A stretch of 50,827 nt of DNA from Clostridia bacterium (GTDB lineage: Bacteria > Bacillota > Clostridia > Oscillospirales > CAG-272). Below the pieces are notes generated by a model that did not search any database, had not been told where the DNA came from, and saw only the letters and a list, made by a program, of their open reading frames with translations. Shown here in pieces: positions 759 through 30,816 of this stretch. The stretch is from positions 1 to 50,827 of the forward strand of contig JAFWYJ010000033.1 of assembly GCA_017517745.1 (NCBI GenBank), read 5' to 3'. The translations under genes were made by a program, and so were the position numbers. How positions within the stretch are numbered: position 1 is the stretch's first letter; each line of letters begins with the position of its first letter.

Positions 759-1165
759 AAGAATTGACGGTAGAAGCGAAGACCACAAACATTGAAGCAG
801 TAACGAACTTTGTGAACGAGCAGCTTGAAGCTCTTGATTGCCCGATGAAAGCGCAGATGCAGATCGACATTGCCATCGACGAGCTTTTCGGCAATATCGC
901 ACACTACGCATACAATCCCGATGTAGGAGAAGCGACCGTTCGCGTGGAGGTTACCGAAGATCCTCTTGCCGTGGTAATCACCTTTATTGATAACGGTGTA
1001 CCTTATGATCCCCTTGCAAAAGCCGATCCCGACACAACGCTTTCCGCAGAAGAAAGAGAGATCGGTGGCTTAGGTATTTATATGGTGAAGAAGTCAATGG
1101 ACGATATCACTTACGAATACAAGGACGGACAGAATATCCTCGCAATCAAGAAAAACTTGCAATAA
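755..1165 (+). CDS. RsbW-like anti-sigma regulatory factor (serine kinase, HATPase_c)
   Basis: A 136-residue GHKL ATPase of the RsbW/SpoIIAB type, which would phosphorylate an antagonist protein and/or bind a sigma factor. The N-box is at residues 42-53 (DELFGNIAHYAY), the G1-type motif DNGVPYDP near residue 79, and a GGLGIYMVK G2-like loop near residue 105. It starts at GTG inside the end of the upstream phosphatase gene, so the pair is co-translated. No STAS antagonist or sigma-factor gene lies next to it in this window; one may be upstream of the edge. Confidence 0.88.
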   Translation: MKELTVEAKTTNIEAVTNFVNEQLEALDCPMKAQMQIDIAIDELFGNIAHYAYNPDVGEATVRVEVTEDPLAVVITFIDNGVPYDPLAKADPDTTLSAEEREIGGLGIYMVKKSMDDITYEYKDGQNILAIKKNLQ

Positions 1166-1247
1166 AAAATCTTGAATCTAACCTTTTGCACTTTGCGGTG
1201 TATAAACAAATGCAGAATGCAAAGTGCAAAATGCAAAATTAATAATT
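1166..1247. repeat. Imperfect heptamer repeat at a gene-truncation junction
   Basis: Several copies of a unit close to AATGCAA / AGTGCAA lie at about 1205-1240 (for example ATGCAGAATGCAAAGTGCAA), directly before the SPASM-domain fragment. There is no promoter or Shine-Dalgarno site for the fragment here. It looks like low-complexity filler at the border of a deletion or insertion. Confidence 0.55.
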
Positions 1248-1556
1248 TATTACGAGGCAAGGAATGATATTCTCGGCAATGTCAAGGAGTATGGACTTCA
1301 ACCGCTACTTCAGATGGGCAAGTATCTCGCGGAGGTCTGTGCCACGGTTGGTGAGCTTGCCGAGGTCAATGAAGAATGCAGAAATTGCCCCTATTTCAAG
1401 TATTGCGCCTCCGGATGCCGTGCGGTTGCTCTGACTCTGACGGGCGACAAAATGGGCGTGGATCTTTCCAAATGCCTGTTCTTCAAAAAAGGTTATTACG
1501 AAAAGGTTGTACGCACGATGGGCGACTTTAGAAACAATACGCCGATCAATGTGTAA
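1248..1556 (+). pseudogene. C-terminal SPASM-domain fragment of a radical SAM protein
   Basis: About 100 residues that match only the auxiliary-cluster (SPASM) end of anaerobic-sulfatase-maturase-type radical SAM enzymes: ECRNCPYFKYCASGCRA followed by a further Cys (DLSKC) about 20 residues later. The catalytic CxxxCxxC radical SAM half is missing. An in-frame ATG exists at 1224, but it lies in the low-complexity repeat and has no ribosome-binding site, so I treat this as the remnant of a larger gene whose 5' part was lost. It ends 8 nt before the Shine-Dalgarno site region of the next gene. Confidence 0.72.
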
Positions 1557-1566
1557 AAGGAGTATT

Positions 1567-3231
1567 ATGAAAAGAAAATTTTTAAGTATCGTTTTGTGTC
1601 TTTCGATGCTTCTGTCGCTTCTGACACTTGCATCCTGCTCGGATAAAAACAATCCTACCGATGGCTCGGGAACAAATCCCCCTGCGGATAAAGCCGCGTC
1701 TATTGCGATCCTCTATGAAAACGACGTGCATTGTGCCGTGGAGGGGTATTCCAAGCTTGCGGCGATGAAAGCCGAGCTGAAAGGGGTCTATGACCACGTG
1801 GGCGTTGTTTCCTCGGGTGACTTTGTGCAGGGTGGCACTTTGGGTGCTGTTTCCAAGGGTGAGTACATCATAAACCTTATGAACAAGGTGGGCTATGATG
1901 CCATCGCGCTCGGCAACCACGAATTTGACTATCAGCTTGCGCGTCTTGTGGAGCTGAACAACCTCTCAAACACCAAGTTTCTCTCCTGTAACTTTGCAAA
2001 AATTGGCGAGGATAAGGCGTACTTTGATTCCTATACCATCGTATCCTACGGTGACGTGGAGATTGCCTACATCGGCATCACCACACCCTCTACCATCAGC
2101 TCGTCAAATCCCGCACAGTTCAAAAACGAGGACGGCGAGATTATATACACATTCAACGAAGCAGATATGTATAGCCTCGTTCAAGCAAACATTGATGCTG
2201 CCGAGAAAGCAGGCGCGGATTACGTGATCGCGCTCTCGCACGTTGGCTATGACGAGTCAGATGAGTTGTTTGATATCACCGATATCATCGAAAATACCGA
2301 CGGATTTGATGTAGTTCTCGATGCACACGCGCATCTTGTCATCGAAAACAAAACCATCAAAGACAAGAGTGGCGACGACGTTCTGCTTTCCTCTACGGGA
2401 ACGAAATTTGAGTACATCGGCAAGCTCACCATCACCGAGGACGGACCCCATACCGAGCTTGTAGAAACCGCTACATACGAAAAGAACGATGCGACCGTGG
2501 ATGCGTACCTTGCCGAAATCAATGAGAGCTACGCAGAGCTTGGCAACCGTGTGATCGGTCAAAGCACTGTCACGCTGAACGACTACGACGGCGATACTCG
2601 ACTTGTCAGAAATAGTGAAACCGCCCTCGGCAATCTTTGCTCGGATGCACTTCGTGTGATGACGGGAGCTGACGTGTCATTTGTCAACGGCGGCGGCTTG
2701 CGTGCACCAATCGAAGCAGGTGATGTCACCTTCAACGATATTTTCTCGGTGTTCCCGTATAACAATCAAGTCGTAACGGTTGAGATCACAGGGCAAATGC
2801 TTCTCGATATGTTAGAGATGGGCGTGATGAATTACCCCGAAGAAAACGGCTCATTCCCAAGTATGTCGGGCGTGACCTTCTCGCTGAATACGGCGATCCC
2901 CACATCCGTCAAGACCGATGAAAACGGCTTCTTCACGGGCGTGGACGGTGACTACCGTGTGTACGGTGTCAAAGTGCTTGACAAGGAAAGCGGCGAATAC
3001 CGTGATCTTGATCTTAACAAGAAATACGTTCTCGCAGGCTTCAACTATCATTTGCTCTCGCAAGGCGACGGAATGGCAATGTTCAAGGATGCCAAACTCA
3101 CCCAAGCCGAGGGAACGCTTGACATCGAGCTTCTTGAAAACTACATTGTGGATCACCTCGGCGGCACCATTGGTGAGGAATATGCACAGCCGCAAGGAAG
3201 AATTACCTTTACCGAGGGATATGCTCAATAA
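1567..3231 (+). CDS. 5'-nucleotidase/UshA-family lipoprotein
   Basis: A 554-residue secreted metallophosphatase. A signal peptide with lipobox LASC (residues 21-24) predicts a lipid-anchored extracellular protein, followed by a short Gly/Pro/Asp linker. The N-terminal calcineurin-like domain shows YENDVHC (residues 50-56), GDFVQGG, LGNHEFDY, SHVGYDES and DAHAHL, the usual dinuclear-metal ligands (the first is ENDVH rather than the common TNDxHG). The C-terminal 5'-nucleotidase domain contains NGGGLRAPI and FPYNN-type substrate motifs. The ATG at 1567 follows AAAGGAG; a longer frame from 1507 lacks this support. Family members hydrolyse extracellular nucleotides or UDP-sugars; exact substrate unknown. 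Confidence 0.93.
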   Translation: MKRKFLSIVLCLSMLLSLLTLASCSDKNNPTDGSGTNPPADKAASIAILYENDVHCAVEGYSKLAAMKAELKGVYDHVGVVSSGDFVQGGTLGAVSKGEYIINLMNKVGYDAIALGNHEFDYQLARLVELNNLSNTKFLSCNFAKIGEDKAYFDSYTIVSYGDVEIAYIGITTPSTISSSNPAQFKNEDGEIIYTFNEADMYSLVQANIDAAEKAGADYVIALSHVGYDESDELFDITDIIENTDGFDVVLDAHAHLVIENKTIKDKSGDDVLLSSTGTKFEYIGKLTITEDGPHTELVETATYEKNDATVDAYLAEINESYAELGNRVIGQSTVTLNDYDGDTRLVRNSETALGNLCSDALRVMTGADVSFVNGGGLRAPIEAGDVTFNDIFSVFPYNNQVVTVEITGQMLLDMLEMGVMNYPEENGSFPSMSGVTFSLNTAIPTSVKTDENGFFTGVDGDYRVYGVKVLDKESGEYRDLDLNKKYVLAGFNYHLLSQGDGMAMFKDAKLTQAEGTLDIELLENYIVDHLGGTIGEEYAQPQGRITFTEGYAQ

Positions 3232-7372: not shown

Positions 7373-8038
7373 TCAAAGACCAAGCAACTGCTTTTTCTTC
7401 GCATCAAACTCTTCTTGGGTAATAATCCCCTGATCTAAAAGGTTCTTCAGTTTAACAAGATCATCCATGCCATGGTTAGTTGTTTGGGAATCGCTTTCAA
7501 TTTTTGCTGTATTGTCTTGACGTTCATTAATCATTCTCGAAAGAACATTTCCAATTTCCTCATAATTGCCGATAAGAGCAAATTTTGTTAAGCCAGATGA
7601 AGTTGCAACTGCAATTGTTGACATAAAAGATCCTGTGGAATAGGCAGAAATCATATTTATGGGAAGAACCACCTCTTTACCAAAAAAAGTTTTTCCTCTA
7701 ACATTTTTATCAGTGACAGAAATTTCACATTTATAAAGCGTAAAAAAAACAATTAAAAAAATACATCCCAACACCAAACAAAGAAAAAATATGACAACAG
7801 ATGCCAGCGCTGATCCATCATCAACATATGCATCATCAAACGCTCTCTCAAAGCCATTTACCATTTCGGTGTTTTCTAATTTAACACCGTACATATAAAA
7901 GGAATTTGTTTCTTCTGTTTCAACAAGTAGTGAACTCATTAAAATTATAGATATGAGAAAGAACGCTCCCGCCCATATAAGAAGAATTCTTGCTACCTTT
8001 CTGTCCTGCTCACTTTTAATTAAAATTTTTTCGTCCAT
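7373..8038 (-). CDS. Two-helix membrane protein with C-terminal SHOCT domain
   Basis: A 221-residue protein. There is a hydrophobic helix near residues 16-36, an extracellular loop, a second helix near residues 75-100, then a PH-like cytoplasmic stretch and a C-terminal SHOCT domain (DLVKLKNLLDQGIITQEEFD...). SHOCT domains occur as oligomerisation or targeting tails in many membrane and phage-related proteins; function here unknown. The start is ATG 8038 behind GGAGG; an in-frame TTG at 8143 lies within the promoter. The 5' leader carries the shortened copy of the structured RNA element described at 26.6 and 30.3 kb. It is divergent from the XRE regulator. Confidence 0.75.
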   Translation of the reverse strand: MDEKILIKSEQDRKVARILLIWAGAFFLISIILMSSLLVETEETNSFYMYGVKLENTEMVNGFERAFDDAYVDDGSALASVVIFFLCLVLGCIFLIVFFTLYKCEISVTDKNVRGKTFFGKEVVLPINMISAYSTGSFMSTIAVATSSGLTKFALIGNYEEIGNVLSRMINERQDNTAKIESDSQTTNHGMDDLVKLKNLLDQGIITQEEFDAKKKQLLGL

Positions 8039-8050
8039 AACAACCTCCAA

Positions 8051-8100
8051 AAATAAAAACTGTGCCAACCGAAGTCCGCGCACCGAAAAACGCAAACCTC
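8051..8100 (-). ncRNA. Shortened copy of the conserved RNA leader (attenuator module)
   Basis: On the minus strand the leader reads AATCGAGGTTTGCGTTTTTC then GGTGCGCGGAC..., matching the 3' module of the two full-length copies (about 26762-26815 and 30222-30280). The hairpin GTGC...TTCG...GCAC at 8062-8083 is followed by TTTTTATTTTT (8051-8061) directly before the Shine-Dalgarno site. The large upstream junction domain of the other copies is missing, so transcription starts almost at the conserved segment. Confidence 0.6.
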
Positions 8101-8114
8101 GATTGTTTATCTTT

Positions 8115-8143
8115 ATTATATCACCTTTTTTTGATTTTGTCAA
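8115..8143 (-). promoter_or_regulatory. Consensus sigma-A promoter of the SHOCT gene
   Basis: Minus strand TTGACA, 17 bp, TATAAT: an exact consensus. The -35 box overlaps the left arm of an inverted repeat (8131-8165). Confidence 0.85.
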
Positions 8144-8165
8144 CCATTTTAATACACAAAATCAA
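8131..8165. promoter_or_regulatory. Candidate operator: 10-bp inverted repeat
   Basis: TTGATTTTGT (8131-8140) and ACAAAATCAA (8156-8165) are perfect inverted repeats 15 bp apart in the divergent intergenic region, covering the -35 box of the SHOCT gene. The adjacent XRE regulator is the obvious candidate to bind it (inference). Confidence 0.5.
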
Positions 8166-8216
8166 CCAATTTGATATGTCATTGTGGTAAACTAAATTCA
8201 AGCAGGAGGTGTGATT

Positions 8217-26569: not shown

Positions 26570-26598
26570 TTGACATTCCTCATGAAACATGCTATAAT
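26570..26598 (+). promoter_or_regulatory. Exact-consensus promoter of the RNA element/SLOG gene
   Basis: TTGACA, 17 bp, TATAAT. Start of transcription is expected near 26605, at the 5' end of the outer stem of the structured RNA. Confidence 0.85.
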
Positions 26599-26603
26599 AA
26601 CAG

Positions 26604-26815
26604 ATGCGAAACAAACTTAATATTTATGGATCGGGTATTTTCTCTGATATAGGGATACTATACCTTTTTTCTGTAATACTATTTTTGAATTTGGCAAAAA
26701 TGCAAATTCCATTAAGTAGTATTACAGTTTATACTTGATCTATTTAAGTTTGTTTCGCAGCAATCGGAGTTTGCGTTTTTCGGTGCGTGGCTTCGGCTGC
26801 GCACTTTTTATTTTT
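26604..26815 (+). ncRNA. Novel structured RNA element, full copy B (leader with terminator)
   Basis: About 210 nt from promoter to terminator. Helices: P1 16 bp, 26605-26620 with 26744-26759 (perfect); P2 10 bp, 26629-26638 with 26731-26740; P3 hairpin 26648-26662 with loop GGATA; P4 11 bp, 26671-26681 with 26717-26727; P5 7 bp, 26687-26693 with 26703-26709. A conserved segment GCAATCGGAGTTTGCG follows, then the terminator hairpin 26783-26804 with UUCG loop and TTTTTATTTTT. The Shine-Dalgarno GAGGA begins right after the T-run. The same architecture with many compensatory changes is on the minus strand at 30222-30437. Either a metabolite/ligand-responsive attenuator or an independent RNA with read-through; class not recognised. 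Confidence 0.75.
26783..26815 (+). terminator. Attenuator-position terminator in RNA copy B
   Basis: GTGCGTGGC-TTCG-GCTGCGCAC (two G-U pairs) followed by TTTTTATTTTT, ending 12 nt before the ATG of the next gene. Confidence 0.85.
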
Positions 26816-26826
26816 GAGGAACTGAT

Positions 26827-27276
26827 ATGATCATCACTTTTTGCGGACATGCCGATTACAGAGCATCCAAGGAGGACGAGAAAGCCATTCTGTCGATTTT
26901 GGGAACACATGTCGGCGACGATCGTGCCGACCTCTATCTCGGCGGTTACGGGGGCTTCGACCGCTTCGCTCGCCGATGCGGAAAAACATATCAAACCGTA
27001 CACCCGCGCACCAAGCTGATTTTGGTCACGCCCTACCTGACACCGGCGTATCAAAAAAATCACCTGAACACCGAAAAGAAAGAATACGATGCCATCATCT
27101 ATCCGGAATTGGAGCATGTTCCGACAAAATTTGCAATCTTATATCGCAACCGCTGGATGGTCGAGAAAGCAGACCTTGTGATCGCCTATGTCCTGCATGA
27201 ACGCGGCGGTGCCTACCAATCTTATCTGCACGCACTCAAAAAACAAAAACCCACCATCAATCTCGCCGATGTGTGA
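26827..27276 (+). CDS. SLOG-superfamily-like (DUF1273/YpsA-like) protein
   Basis: A 149-residue cytoplasmic protein with a small Rossmann-like fold. The N-terminus IITFCGHADY, the YLGGYGGFDRFA glycine motif after the second strand, and a C-terminal ADLVIAYVLHERGGAYQSYL with a final TINL strand follow the pattern of SLOG/YpsA/DprA-like nucleotide-binding domains. SLOG proteins bind nucleotide-derived ligands or act on ribosides; the role here is unknown. ATG 26827 has GAGGA 7 nt upstream and is the sole gene controlled by the 210-nt RNA leader. A terminator follows at 27317. Confidence 0.75.
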   Translation: MIITFCGHADYRASKEDEKAILSILGTHVGDDRADLYLGGYGGFDRFARRCGKTYQTVHPRTKLILVTPYLTPAYQKNHLNTEKKEYDAIIYPELEHVPTKFAILYRNRWMVEKADLVIAYVLHERGGAYQSYLHALKKQKPTINLADV

Positions 27277-27316
27277 AAAGAAGAAGCACTTTCAAACAAT
27301 CGTCATTTCATAACAA

Positions 27317-27353
27317 AAAGCATCACCCGAACGAACAGGTGATGCTTTCTCTC
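27317..27353 (+). terminator. Terminator of the SLOG-like gene
   Basis: AAAGCATCACC / GGTGATGCTTT stem, followed by CTCTCTTTCCCC. Confidence 0.75.
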
Positions 27354-27366
27354 TTTCCCCTTTTTT

Positions 27367-27441
27367 CAAAAAGGTTCTTGAAAGGATGGGGGTGCGGGGG
27401 AAGGAAAACTTCTTCCTCAAAGAAGTTTTCCTTCCCCCGCA
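27367..27441. repeat. Dispersed hairpin repeat, copy 3 (inverted), after trpB2
   Basis: A 19-bp perfect stem (arms 27393-27411 and 27423-27441, GCGGGGGAAGGAAAACTTC and its complement). On the minus strand it is followed by ACCCCCATCC-TTTCAAGAAC-CTTTTTG, the same tail as copies 1 and 2. Probably terminates trpB2. Confidence 0.75.
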
Positions 27442-27456
27442 AATCCTATCTTCTAA

Positions 27457-28830
27457 TCAATCCACCTTCGGCAGCTTTGCGAAGTTGGCGGAGATTTCCT
27501 CGTCGGTGGGAATATAGTCGGTCATTTGACCGTTGTGGAATTTCTCGTATGCAAGCATATCGAAGTAACCGGTTCCGGTCAGGCCGAACAGAATGGTCTT
27601 TTCCTCGCCGGTCTCGCGGCACTTCATCGCCTCGTCGATCGCCACGCGGATGGCGTGAGAGCTTTCGGGTGCGGGAAGGATACCCTCGACGCGAGCGAAC
27701 TGCTCTGCCGCCTCAAAGACCTCGGTCTGCTTGACGGTTCTTGCCTCCATCAAGCCGTCGGCATAGAGCTGCGACAGCGTGGAGTTCATGCCGTGGTAGC
27801 GCAAGCCGCCCGAATGATTTGCAGAGGGAATGAAGCCGCTGCCCAGCGTGTACATCTTGGAAAGCGGGCAGACCATGCCGGTGTCGCAATAGTCGTAGGC
27901 ATACACGCCGCGCGTGAAGCTGGGGCAGGACGCGGGCTCGACTGCGATGAAGCGGTAATCCGCCTCGCCGCGGATCTTCTCACCCATAAAGGGAGCGATC
28001 AAGCCGCCGAGGTTCGATCCGCCGCCGGCGCAACCGATGATGATGTCGGGCTGAATGTCATATTGTTTCATCGCGGCTCTCGTTTCGAGACCGATGATCG
28101 ACTGATGCAGCATGACCTGATTGAGCACGCTGCCCAGCACGTAGCGATAGCCGGGGGTATTCGTCGCCTTCTCGACCGCCTCGGAGATCGCGCAGCCAAG
28201 GCTTCCCGTGGTGCCGGGATGCTCGGCAAGGATCTTCTTGCCGACCTCGGTCTCCATCGAGGGAGAGGGTGTGACCGACGCGCCGTAGGTGCGCATCACC
28301 TCGCGGCGGAAGGGCTTTTGCTCATAGGAGCATTTGACCATATATACCTTGCAGTCCAATCCGAAATACGAGCACGCCATCGAAAGCGCGGTTCCCCACT
28401 GACCTGCACCCGTCTCGGTGGTGACGCCGATGAGTCCCTGCTGCTTGGCGTAATACGCCTGCGCGATGGCGGAGTTGAGCTTGTGGCTTCCGCTGGTGTT
28501 GTTACCCTCGAATTTATAGTAGATCTTTGCGGGGGTCTGCAGTTTTTCCTCCAGGCAGTAGGCGCGCACCAGAGGCGCGGGACGGTACATCTTGTAGAAA
28601 TCGCGAATGACCTCGGGAATTTCAAAATATGCCGTGGTGTCATCCAGCTCCTGCTTGATCAGATCCTCGCAAAAAACGCCTGAGAGGTCCTTTGCCGTCA
28701 TCGGTTTGTGCGTGACGGGATCCAAGAGAGGTGCGGGTTTGTTTTTCATATCCGCGCGAAGGTTGTACCATGCGCGAGGCATCTCGGATTCTTCGAGATA
28801 GATTTTGTAAGGAATTTGCTTGTTCGACAT
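27457..28830 (-). CDS. TrpB2-type tryptophan synthase beta subunit (PLP)
   Basis: A 457-residue PLP enzyme of the TrpB2/TrpB-like class that makes L-tryptophan from L-serine and indole. The PLP lysine motif GSHKLNSAIAQ, the TETGAGQWGTALS segment and phosphate loop CAGGGSNLGG are clear. The extended N-terminal region (about 80 residues before the fold) is typical of TrpB2 and absent in TrpB1. There is no trpA, trpC or other trp gene beside it, so it probably salvages indole or works with a distant pathway. ATG 28830 follows AAAGGAGA. Controlled by a Trp T-box leader. Confidence 0.93.
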   Translation of the reverse strand: MSNKQIPYKIYLEESEMPRAWYNLRADMKNKPAPLLDPVTHKPMTAKDLSGVFCEDLIKQELDDTTAYFEIPEVIRDFYKMYRPAPLVRAYCLEEKLQTPAKIYYKFEGNNTSGSHKLNSAIAQAYYAKQQGLIGVTTETGAGQWGTALSMACSYFGLDCKVYMVKCSYEQKPFRREVMRTYGASVTPSPSMETEVGKKILAEHPGTTGSLGCAISEAVEKATNTPGYRYVLGSVLNQVMLHQSIIGLETRAAMKQYDIQPDIIIGCAGGGSNLGGLIAPFMGEKIRGEADYRFIAVEPASCPSFTRGVYAYDYCDTGMVCPLSKMYTLGSGFIPSANHSGGLRYHGMNSTLSQLYADGLMEARTVKQTEVFEAAEQFARVEGILPAPESSHAIRVAIDEAMKCRETGEEKTILFGLTGTGYFDMLAYEKFHNGQMTDYIPTDEEISANFAKLPKVD

Positions 28831-28890
28831 GATTCTGTCTCCTTTCTGATGGTCGGGGAAATTCCGACTCCCCTTGCGTTTTGTGGGACA

Positions 28891-29192
28891 AAATATAAAA
28901 AACCTGCCCCTGGCTTGTGATTTGCCGGGACAGGATTGAATTCCTGCGGTGCCACCCTGCTTGGCGCTCTCGCGCCCACTTTCACATACGCGGAAGGAAC
29001 TTCCGTTGATATGCCGACGTTTGATCACGGAGTGTCCGCTCCGTCTTACATACTCCGCGTGACGGTGCCACGCGTTTCCGCTCGCCCTCGGAAGTCCATT
29101 CAACGCTCTGTGTCCCGCCGCAATCACAGCACCTGCGGCTCTCTGGGGAGACAGGGGGAGCATCTACTCACTCTTCCTCATCGGTTTCTGTC
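28891..29192 (-). promoter_or_regulatory. T-box riboswitch, tryptophan-specific
   Basis: The minus-strand leader of trpB2. Stem I begins GATGAGGAAGAGTGAGTAGA with the usual GA-rich K-turn. The specifier is TGG (plus-strand CCA at 29096-29098) in GAA-TGG-AC, i.e. tRNA-Trp. The T-box core AGCAGGGTGGCACCGC is at about 28946-28961; its TGGC would pair with GCCA at the tRNA 3' end, fitting the G discriminator of tRNA-Trp. The terminator pairs CCTGTCCCGGC with GCCAGGGGCAGG (28903-28934) and ends in TTTTTT. Uncharged tRNA-Trp would switch on trpB2. Confidence 0.93.
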
Positions 29193-29221
29193 ATTATAGC
29201 ACATTCCAAAAGCTTTGTCAA
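29193..29221 (-). promoter_or_regulatory. Consensus promoter of the T-box/trpB2 unit
   Basis: Minus strand TTGACA, 17 bp, TATAAT. Confidence 0.85.
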
Positions 29222-29275
29222 GTGCTTTTTCGGATTTTCTTTTTTGCGGAACGCAAAGAAAAAGGGCGGATCAAA

Positions 29276-29410
29276 TGGCATGTACTCTTAAGGACAGTTT
29301 TTGAACATGCTATCTACCGACAGGAGTGCAGAGAATATTTTACATTCTCTGCACTCTTTGCTTGCCTGACGGAATGTAGATATATACTCCGCTGACAAGG
29401 CGGGAGTCGT
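29276..29410. other. Strongly folded intergenic segment, possible small RNA
   Basis: A GCATGT...ACATGC hairpin (29279-29310) is followed by a long nested hairpin: ATCTAC/GTAGAT (29312-29317 with 29376-29381), CAGG/CCTG, and a perfect 13-bp stem GAGTGCAGAGAAT/ATTCTCTGCACTC. No clear promoter on either strand and no reading frame, so the assignment as RNA is tentative. The rest of the 29222-29467 gap is the terminator below. Confidence 0.35.
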
Positions 29411-29412
29411 AA

Positions 29413-29456
29413 TAAAAAATGAATGTATGCGCTAACACATACATTCATTTTTTGTT
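29413..29456 (-). terminator. Terminator of the SHOCT-like/zinc-ribbon operon
   Basis: A perfect 16-bp stem AAAAAATGAATGTATG / CATACATTCATTTTTT, 12 nt after the zinc-ribbon gene stop; symmetric, so it can work on both strands. Confidence 0.85.
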
Positions 29457-29467
29457 GAGATTATTGA

Positions 29468-29728
29468 TTATAGCAAATCCAATAATAAAACAATAGATAC
29501 AATGGACGATATTATACCTCCGACTATTAAGAGCACCCACCATAAAGCTCCCAAAGAAACAAATACGTTTGTCGCATTTTCGTCCTTCTCACCTATTTTT
29601 TGTGCGTCTATATTATCATATTTCTTTTCGGGTGTAATAGAGTGTCCACAGTTCATGCAAATCAAACTGCTTGAATTACCCTCTAATGAGTGACCGCAGT
29701 TAGGGCAGGCTCTATTCGAGTTATCCAT
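29468..29728 (-). CDS. Small zinc-ribbon single-helix membrane protein
   Basis: An 86-residue protein with an N-terminal zinc ribbon (CPNCGHSLEG ... LICMNCGHSI, two CxxC pairs 16 residues apart) and a C-terminal hydrophobic helix (residues 58-84), so the ribbon would face the cytoplasm. The start codon overlaps the stop of the upstream gene as TAATG, implying translational coupling. Second gene of the operon led by the full RNA element copy C. Function unknown. Confidence 0.8.
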   Translation of the reverse strand: MDNSNRACPNCGHSLEGNSSSLICMNCGHSITPEKKYDNIDAQKIGEKDENATNVFVSLGALWWVLLIVGGIISSIVSIVLLLDLL

Positions 29729-30198
29729 TATATCTCAACCCCGGGCATTTTCATCCATTGACCGAGGCTCTTCCCGGAAAAGGGATTCTTAAGAGCTTGT
29801 AAAACCATGGTGAAATTAAAATTATCATCTATGACAAGTGCTATTTCTTCTCTCAACATTGTTCCATAAGCATTAGGAGCATCAACATATGTATGTATAT
29901 AGCGGAGGTTGTACGTTTTTGAACCAAGACCTGCAGATATTTTCAGTTCGCCCTCTTTGATCATAGAAGAATCCATAGGAGGAAACTTAATAGACGAGGG
30001 GCTCTTAAACGCTTTTGCCACAGTCTCTCTCATAAATGATTCATACTTAAGCTCCATAGGTTTTTTCTCGGTTTGAGTGCCACTTTCGGTAGCTCCTGCA
30101 CTCAAAACTTGAATGATTTTAGATAATTCGTCAGCAGAAATAATTCCTTTGTTCATCAATTCTGTAATAGCATTGATTTTTTCACTTAGTGTTGCCAT
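29728..30198 (-). CDS. SHOCT-like N-terminal domain protein under RNA element C
   Basis: A 156-residue protein. The first 32 residues (LSEKINAITELMNKGIISAD ... LSKII) resemble a SHOCT-type helix-loop-helix. A 20-residue linker and a beta-rich domain follow (residues 55-150: FMRETVAKAFKSPSSIKFPP, LRYIHTYVDAPNAYGTMLRE) that I cannot assign; it resembles stand-alone domains in prophage-like regions. No membrane segment of its own. ATG 30198 follows GGAGGAG; a longer frame from 30243 would overlap the leader terminator. Coupled to the zinc-ribbon membrane protein, which may anchor it (inference). Confidence 0.75.
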   Translation of the reverse strand: MATLSEKINAITELMNKGIISADELSKIIQVLSAGATESGTQTEKKPMELKYESFMRETVAKAFKSPSSIKFPPMDSSMIKEGELKISAGLGSKTYNLRYIHTYVDAPNAYGTMLREEIALVIDDNFNFTMVLQALKNPFSGKSLGQWMKMPGVEI

Positions 30199-30221
30199 TT
30201 TCTTCTCCTCCAAAAGATAGA

Positions 30222-30437
30222 TATAAAATAAAAAGAGCGTCAACCGTAGTCAACGCTCTGAAAAGCGCAAACTCCGATTGCTGCTACACAAACTAAAATA
30301 GAATTAGGGTATTACCATAATCATTTAGTGAAGCTTGCGCTTTTACCAAGTTCAAAAATGATTATGGCGAAAAAAGGGTATAATATCCCTATAAAGACAA
30401 AAATACCGCTAATTCAGATATTCAGTTTGTGTAGCAT
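30222..30437 (-). ncRNA. Novel structured RNA element, full copy C
   Basis: Minus-strand counterpart of the element at 26604. Helices in plus coordinates: P1 30424-30436 with 30282-30294; P2 30402-30415 with 30301-30313 (one C-C mismatch); P3 hairpin 30379-30393 with loop GGATA; P4 12 bp, 30356-30367 with 30315-30326; P5 near 30347-30353 with 30330-30337. Then the conserved GCAATCGGAGTTTGCG and a terminator (30234-30259) with TTTTTATTTTAT. Compared with copy B most paired positions differ but pairing is kept (P1 begins TGCTACACAAACT here, TGCGAAACAAACTT there). The gene starts 24 nt after the T-run. Confidence 0.75.
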
Positions 30438-30441
30438 CTTT

Positions 30442-30470
30442 ATTATATCACGATTTTTGCGTTTTGTAAA
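30442..30470 (-). promoter_or_regulatory. Promoter of RNA element C
   Basis: Minus strand TTTACA, 17 bp, TATAAT, with the outer RNA stem beginning about 6 nt after the -10 box, as in copy B. Confidence 0.8.
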
Positions 30471-30510: not shown

Positions 30511-30652
30511 AGAAAAAAGCCTCCCTTGTGTAAAGGGAGGTGGCACGCGGTAGCGTGACGGAGGGATTGTAAAAGCAAGTTGCAAAATCAAAACAATCCC
30601 TCAGCCGCCTTCGGCGTCAGCTCCCTTTACACAAGGGAGCCTTTTCTTTATG
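30511..30652. mobile_element. MITE-like palindromic element
   Basis: Imperfect inverted repeats of about 58 bp (30511-30570 and 30593-30650). They share the outer motif GCTCCCTTGTGTAAAGGGAG and the inner GAGGGATTGT / ACAATCCCTC, with a GC-rich hairpin inside each arm and an A-rich centre. It encodes nothing and can fold as a single long hairpin. I recall very similar sequences scattered in gut Clostridia genomes. It lies between the RNA-element promoter and the lipoprotein promoter. Confidence 0.75.
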
Positions 30653-30816
30653 TTCATCTATGGCTTGTCAATTTTCCTGACAAGCACTGCATTTGTGACC
30701 ACAAATGCAAAAAATACGGCATACCTCTTTCGGGGTACACCGTATTCTTGGAAAACTGTCCTTTAGGGTACGACCCTAACACCTTGCGTTTTTTGGCAAA
30801 GATTTGCCAGAAAGTC

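Follow-up and report, generated by a model that had tools for sequence, protein, structure and literature searches.

The 50,827-nucleotide (nt) stretch of DNA analysed here, called the window below, belongs to a Clostridia bacterium of the CAG-272 lineage (assembly GCA_017517745.1, contig JAFWYJ010000033.1). It contains two copies, B and C, of a structured RNA. Judging from their sequences, B and C are probably copies of a cis-acting transcription attenuator that works by a strand relay, and the genes under its control are enriched in exported proteins. A first-pass annotation of the window had read B and C as an undescribed, covarying and attenuator-like structured RNA, and that reading is supported. 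Two parts were absent from it: a pseudoknot between an apical segment of the P4 hairpin and the conserved strand GGAGTTTGCG-T5, and the scale of the family. The RNA represents a new class, of a functional kind that is already known.

Copy B is located at 26604-26815 on the plus strand and copy C at 30222-30437 on the minus strand; these positions, taken from the first-pass annotation, were verified. When compared with 200 dinucleotide shuffles the folds had z scores of -11.0 (B) and -10.0 (C), and in neither case was a shuffle as good. Both copies have the same layout, in which a promoter is followed by a branched RNA with a three-way junction enclosed by helix P1, the segment GCAATCGGAGTTTGCG, an intrinsic terminator and a Shine-Dalgarno site with its gene. 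As had been proposed, each copy has its own promoter ending directly 5' of P1. That of B (26570-26598) consists of a -35 box TTGACA at 26570-26575, a 17-nt spacer and a -10 box TATAAT at 26593-26598, and that of C (30442-30470, minus strand) of TTTACA at 30470-30465, 17 nt and TATAAT at 30447-30442. The P1 arms are TGCGAAAC/GTTTCGCA in B and TGCTACAC/GTGTAGCA in C. Directly after the terminator follows the Shine-Dalgarno site, GAGG in B and GGAGGAG in C, again in agreement with the first reading.

In copy B, folding pairs the 5' strand of P1 (26605-26620) with 26744-26759, in line with the covariation of P1. Folding also gives the 5' strand of P2 (26627-26638, opposite about 26731-26742), the P3 hairpin with its GGATA loop and a U6 tract behind it (26648-26670), and the long P4 hairpin (26671-26727). 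The apical helix of P4, P4a, is formed by strand alpha, GAATTTG (26687-26693), assigned by two-sided changes and a swap test, and strand beta, AAAAATGCAAATTCC (26696-26710), which by pairing and covariation is either the 3' side of P4a or the pseudoknot partner of a third strand, gamma. The conserved segment behind P1 (26760-26780) includes gamma, GGAGTTTGCGTTTTT (26766-26780), which pairs with beta, and the overlapping antiterminator strand CAATCGGAGTTTGCG (26761-26775), which pairs with the terminator with one mismatch in B. The terminator (26783-26815) has its hairpin at 26783-26804 and its T tract at 26805-26815. The RNA of copy C runs from P1 to the terminator at 30230-30436 on the minus strand, with beta at 30344-30330, gamma at 30275-30261 and the terminator hairpin at 30258-30235.

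The family was analysed on 120 distinct copies, selected from 148 aligned matches for an interior of 60 nt or more and for a post-P1 strand and terminator that could be parsed; rows that were duplicates, truncated, degenerate or on the wrong strand were discarded. Across these copies the conserved strand GGAGTTTGCG-T5 has two covarying partners that exclude each other: a loop further upstream, with which it can form the pseudoknot, and the terminator, with which it can form the antiterminator. Gamma, located on the 3' side of P1, is complementary to the apical beta strand AAAAAYGCAAATTCC. Within the P1-enclosed domain this apical A-run segment pairs best with gamma in 119/120 copies (-13.7 kcal/mol or better), and the resulting pseudoknot has 14-16 bp in 117/120. 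Its native mean is better than all 5000 partner permutations, and on the model alignment of 101 distinct sequences 99% of the cells pair, with two-sided changes at 6/15 pairs. Furthermore, alpha pairs locally with beta in 95% of the cells, and all seven pairs of this P4a helix show two-sided changes; here too the native value (112 sequences) is better than all 5000 permutations. P1 itself is at least 11 bp long and has changes on both sides at 7/11 scored pairs. The covariation claimed from two copies is thus borne out on 101 distinct sequences.

Extended in the 5' direction, gamma is able to pair with the arms and loop of the terminator. This is reflected in a triplet that varies between leaders. 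Where the leader carries CAA, the terminator has TTG opposite in 54/70 copies (CTG in 8, TTA in 6, TCA in 1, one not parsed), and where it carries CTA, the terminator has TAG or TGG in 43/47 (TTG in 2, TTA and TCG in 1 each), whereas CAA opposite TAG or TGG was never found. The native mean of the antiterminator is better than all 5000 permutations. When gamma is free, folding predicts the antiterminator in 103/120 copies, compared with 19/600 when the leaders are shuffled. The attenuator layout proposed earlier is therefore upheld: an intrinsic terminator stands between the promoter and the start codon on the gene's own strand, and a covarying antiterminator that excludes it, although the weakest helix on the aligned set, is present.

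Several observations weigh against this interpretation. For the antiterminator, 91-97% of the cells pair and only 3/14 pairs have two-sided changes, two pairs fail in 38 and 26 of the 101 rows, and the leader and terminator triplets are mismatched in 15/69 parsed CAA and 4/47 CTA copies. Copy B has an A-C mismatch in the antiterminator and is among the 17/120 copies whose free tail folds as the terminator; it is a weak example of this helix. The pseudoknot is lacking in one copy of the 120 (L088), and a T-rich end was found by a simple rule in only 86/118. Some copies stand as tandem units, each with its own promoter (L080, L102, L116, L218), which would be superfluous for a pure leader. The permutation tests take no account of shared ancestry, although the divergent copies described below argue against ancestry as the sole cause of the pairing signal. 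Finally, a geometric test of the length of P1 plus P2 against that of P4 gave a negative correlation, confounded by the assignment of the junction, so that a side-by-side packing of these helices is unsupported; the mean length difference of 14.5 nt fits the pseudoknot.

The helices alpha:beta, beta:gamma and gamma:delta, the terminator, and their mutual exclusion are supported by the sequence comparisons. The three helices and the terminator make up a chain whose adjacent members are mutually exclusive, with alpha and beta in P4a, gamma just 3' of P1, and delta in the arms and loop of the terminator. We propose that transcription starts at the foot of P1. In the putative OFF state the beta:gamma pseudoknot, typically of 14-16 bp, would keep gamma from the terminator, which could then form and release a short RNA of about 205 nt. 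In the putative ON state alpha:beta would be closed and gamma would pair with the terminator as antiterminator, allowing RNA polymerase to read into the gene. The OFF state is proposed as the default because a rough sum of energies, in which loop penalties are left aside, predicts pseudoknot plus terminator to be about 10 kcal/mol more stable. The choice might be tipped by a ligand, a protein or a physiological condition that favours alpha:beta or shields the GGAG/UUCC contact.

Outside these strands the RNA is only partly constant. In the 112 long copies the 5' strand of P1 is followed by a conserved AATA, with A at 95% at the best position, and the apical loop is conserved around TTTGRTAAAA. 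P2 and P4 recur as helices with little common sequence; they were assessed by folding each sequence, as the first MAFFT alignments misplaced P2. When each interior was folded with beta left unpaired, P3 appeared as a side hairpin preceding the main P4 branch in 106/112 long copies. The GGATA hairpin listed as a shared feature of B and C is therefore kept in most long copies as a hairpin, but not in sequence, and P3 is the least constant part of the RNA.

A shorter architecture of about 147-185 nt has one long hairpin in place of the P3/P4 junction, with a similar GRTAAAA adjoining alpha:beta. The sequences of gamma, beta and terminator differ widely between these copies, yet they pair within each copy. 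For 21 sequences (twenty copies and the short form L058 described below) the native means of both the pseudoknot and the antiterminator were better than all 5000 permutations. The shorter architecture thus appears to keep the same relay logic through different letters. The same is seen in a divergent copy in the genome of the window (C57:14154-14309, minus strand), where the letters of gamma, beta and terminator have changed together; the gene behind it is of a family that also stands behind several normal copies. In L051 a divergently oriented pair was observed, at 1013-1168 (minus strand) and 1501-1710 (plus strand), one normal and one with fully diverged sequence; a gene for a small Cys-rich protein, treated below, follows each.

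The short form L058 (8060-8120, minus strand; model match 8055-8190) has a -10 box, an antiterminator strand (8105-8091) and a terminator-like hairpin (8083-8060), and is without the P1-P4/pseudoknot domain. Its pseudoknot is predicted at -5.3 kcal/mol and its antiterminator, strong, at -24.3 kcal/mol. The gene behind it (7376-8038, minus strand) encodes a SHOCT domain (E 1.9e-10). The short form is possibly a constitutive derivative.

Placement of the RNA relative to genes was assessed in 117 copies, three of the 120 being omitted for lack of downstream sequence. In 89/117 copies the terminator is followed within 60 nt by a same-strand start codon with a Shine-Dalgarno site, whereas the reverse-orientation control gave 0/117. 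An open reading frame (ORF) was present within the search range in 109/117, at a median distance of 26 nt, and absent in 8/117. At the other end, a -10 box matching at five of six positions or better stands just before P1 in 100/118 copies, as against 9/116 at a control position.

This placement bears on two quite different explanations of the RNA. It could be a trans-acting small RNA, in which case the terminated transcript would be the product, the gene would be reached by read-through, and the loop or the GGAG strand would pair with other mRNAs. The promoters at the start of the RNA, the complete terminator, the tandem units and an anti-Shine-Dalgarno-like UUCC/CUCC seen by eye in beta all agree with such a role, but a covarying antiterminator would have no function in a pure trans-acting RNA, and the position in front of genes (89/117 against 0/117) together with the one gene family that follows the RNA in 19/19 cases led us to reject this as the main role. 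We therefore consider a trans-acting RNA improbable as an overall explanation, but the released RNA could have a further function besides, in view of the complete terminator and of the tandem units that each have a promoter. A mobile miniature element, similar to a miniature inverted-repeat transposable element and with P1 as its inverted ends, would account for the many and sometimes tandem copies and for their presence on contigs filed as phage. However, the arms of P1 change by compensation between copies, the orientation before the gene is fixed, there is a promoter at one end and a Shine-Dalgarno site at the other, and the matches to B in its own genome are only 72-86% identical over the matched part. 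Insertion of a mobile repeat with no fixed gene context is ruled out by the compensatory arms and the fixed placement, and a mobile origin of this type is very improbable.

Within the preferred explanation, a cis-acting attenuator, two versions differ in what would set the relay, and we regard each as possible but rather doubtful, to the same degree. According to the first, a metabolite riboswitch, the three-way junction with an A-rich P1/P2 bulge would bind a small ligand, perhaps a second messenger. The regulon-like spread over many genes per genome, the conserved AATA and loop bases, and the full expression platform are consistent with this. No large conserved pocket is evident, however, because P2 and P4 vary freely and P3 is gone from the shorter architecture; in a comparison made for a shared aptamer core the AATA and the TTTGRTAAAA loop were conserved, and P2, P4 and P3 were not. 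The downstream genes, moreover, do not belong to one pathway. According to the second version, an RNA-binding protein would stabilise the apical hairpin of P4. The loop around TTTGRTAAAA, its GRTAAAA counterpart beside alpha:beta in the shorter architecture and the many target genes would suit a protein-dependent leader, but no candidate protein came up, and no search aimed at one was made.

The genes behind the RNA share a tendency to encode exported proteins. At the loci from named genomes, considering downstream proteins of at least 100 aa and applying simple rules, a lipobox or N-terminal hydrophobic segment was found in 37/54 downstream proteins and in 47/307 other ORFs of the same loci (Fisher P about 7e-15). 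Of the 109 downstream proteins, 92 were searched with Pfam. Eleven of these have BspA-type leucine-rich repeats and several have zinc ribbons; dockerin, SLH, Ig-like and collagen domains turned up in one or two proteins each. Among the 17 proteins left out of the scan, nine are copies of a small Cys-rich protein (consensus ...DITGVELTPGEP.VCLGNGEQGFECCCDECDYYLLCFPEFD), one member of which was scanned without a match in Pfam (E 1) or NCBIfam (E 0.1). This protein occurs 19 times in 11/60 relatives, and the RNA precedes it in 19/19, one of these being cut by a contig end. In L125:6665-7033, L071 and L126 the small Cys-rich protein is fused in one ORF to a C-terminal part, PSKRHKIRMN, which recurs in a second family of small proteins, likewise located behind the RNA.

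The genes behind B and C had been described as encoding a SLOG-like protein and a SHOCT-like/zinc-ribbon pair. The gene behind B (26816-27276 with its Shine-Dalgarno site, ATG at 26827, 149 aa) has a sub-threshold Pfam match to YpsA/SLOG (E 0.0046). Behind C, the first gene (29728-30198, minus strand, 156 aa) has a very weak match to SHOCT_2 (E 0.13), and the second (29468-29728, minus strand, 86 aa), whose C terminus appears hydrophobic by eye, matches zinc ribbons below threshold (best E 4.5e-05). These names thus correspond to weak or sub-threshold matches, but neither SLOG nor SHOCT is a theme of the family, where exported proteins are enriched instead. The RNA is not obligatory for the SLOG-like family of the B gene, since it stands directly before the gene in 4/30 fetched loci (L240, L241, L242, L264); at a further locus of this family, L243, the RNA lies about 315 nt upstream of the gene.

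A covariance model, R1, was built from 10 copies in the genome of the window. DNA similarity identified 11 places in this genome, and with R1 there were 16 matches at E up to 1, made up of 11 copies scoring 111 bits or more, the divergent copy, the short form, and three mirror-strand matches. Such low-scoring matches on the opposite strand at the same places reflect the inverted arms and were excluded from copy counts. B and C, the two copies of the first-pass annotation, are therefore real, but they are two of a larger set. A search of Clostridia with a covariance model, which that annotation had suggested, found the RNA with covarying pairs in many relatives. R1 matched 41/60 relatives in 11/26 genera, with up to 13 model matches per genome (mirror-strand matches may be counted in), and 95/391 genomes sampled from the class, in 55/223 genera, the genome of the window being counted each time. 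In a phylum-wide sample, which doubles as a negative control, 1/398 genomes matched at E 1e-6, this being the genome of the window itself. The class-wide and phylum-wide scans scored five candidates per genome, so their copy counts are lower bounds.

A 24-base pattern was found in at least 116 stretches of the named genome collection. Among the matches listed (116 records), 114 are labelled as metagenome-assembled genomes, mostly named Clostridia, Oscillospiraceae, Clostridiales or Ruminococcus, and many titles refer to gut sections. The two listed records lacking this label are Pumilibacter intestinalis CLA-AA-M10 and Lachnospiraceae bacterium MD329, and all named carriers in the list are Clostridia or Bacillota. 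Copies were also found on contigs filed as phage (two unannotated human-faecal records, L238:2076-2230 and L239:3903-4059) or virus (L208:5368-5576), and there was no match in the plasmids searched.

The claim that the RNA is undescribed was confirmed against Rfam 15. At gathering thresholds the whole window gave only a tRNA. Around B and C, at E up to 5, the matches over the copies were just mir-7360, snoZ7 and S15 (E 0.45-4.6), and at 15 loci of both architectures nothing lay over the RNA at E up to 0.5. These scans rule out a known Rfam class. Like a T-box leader (RF00230), the RNA combines a terminator with an antiterminator, but there was no T-box match at B or C. The only one found in the search around the copies is two kb off, at 28923-29190 (minus strand; 72.5 bits, under the gathering score of 93), upstream of an ORF ending near 27457 that by eye is TrpB-like. 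Elsewhere in the window, at about 30515-30655, there is a long imperfect inverted repeat (AAGGCTCCCTTGTGTAAAGGGAGG...), similar to sequence upstream of another copy in the same genome.

In trp/his-type attenuators, alternating hairpins exclude each other and set terminator against antiterminator. The present RNA resembles them in its chain of mutually exclusive helices, but here the chain begins in a pseudoknotted apical loop inside a long P1, and no leader peptide was evident in the leaders by eye, which was not a systematic ORF test. In preQ1/ZTP pseudoknot and strand-displacement switches a pseudoknot near the expression platform decides termination; in this RNA the pseudoknot is similarly placed, but it is a near-perfect duplex, typically of 14-16 bp, and would itself be the sequestering helix. 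The put and EAR antitermination RNAs also place a structured RNA between promoter and terminator, whereas here the antiterminator appears to be a direct base-pairing competitor with covariation. The c-di-GMP (cyclic di-GMP) riboswitch classes control second-messenger regulons, with numerous copies in a genome that precede genes for surface proteins and lipoproteins. The RNA shares this distribution, but it has another architecture and matches no Rfam family. No description of such an RNA was recognised in the literature searched, supplementary lists excepted, including parts of PMC8040213 and PMC11109978, so an unnamed earlier candidate is possible.

Taken further, the RNA could constitute a class-wide regulon of gut Clostridia, a new class of riboswitch or RNA sensor in two architectures that run the same alpha-beta-gamma-delta relay by different pairings, read one global intracellular signal, and switch surface proteins, lipoproteins and small Cys-rich proteins. 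We put this forward tentatively, as an idea that is plausible but falls somewhat short of an even chance. Should this hold, an RNA regulatory system absent from Rfam 15 would be carried by about a quarter of the genomes sampled from the class (95/391), and the system would be linked to an undescribed family of small Cys-rich proteins, which stands behind the RNA in all occurrences examined. Its more than 100 naturally occurring, covarying variants of a pseudoknot/antiterminator relay would also be of use in studies of RNA folding and in the search for a new cellular signal.

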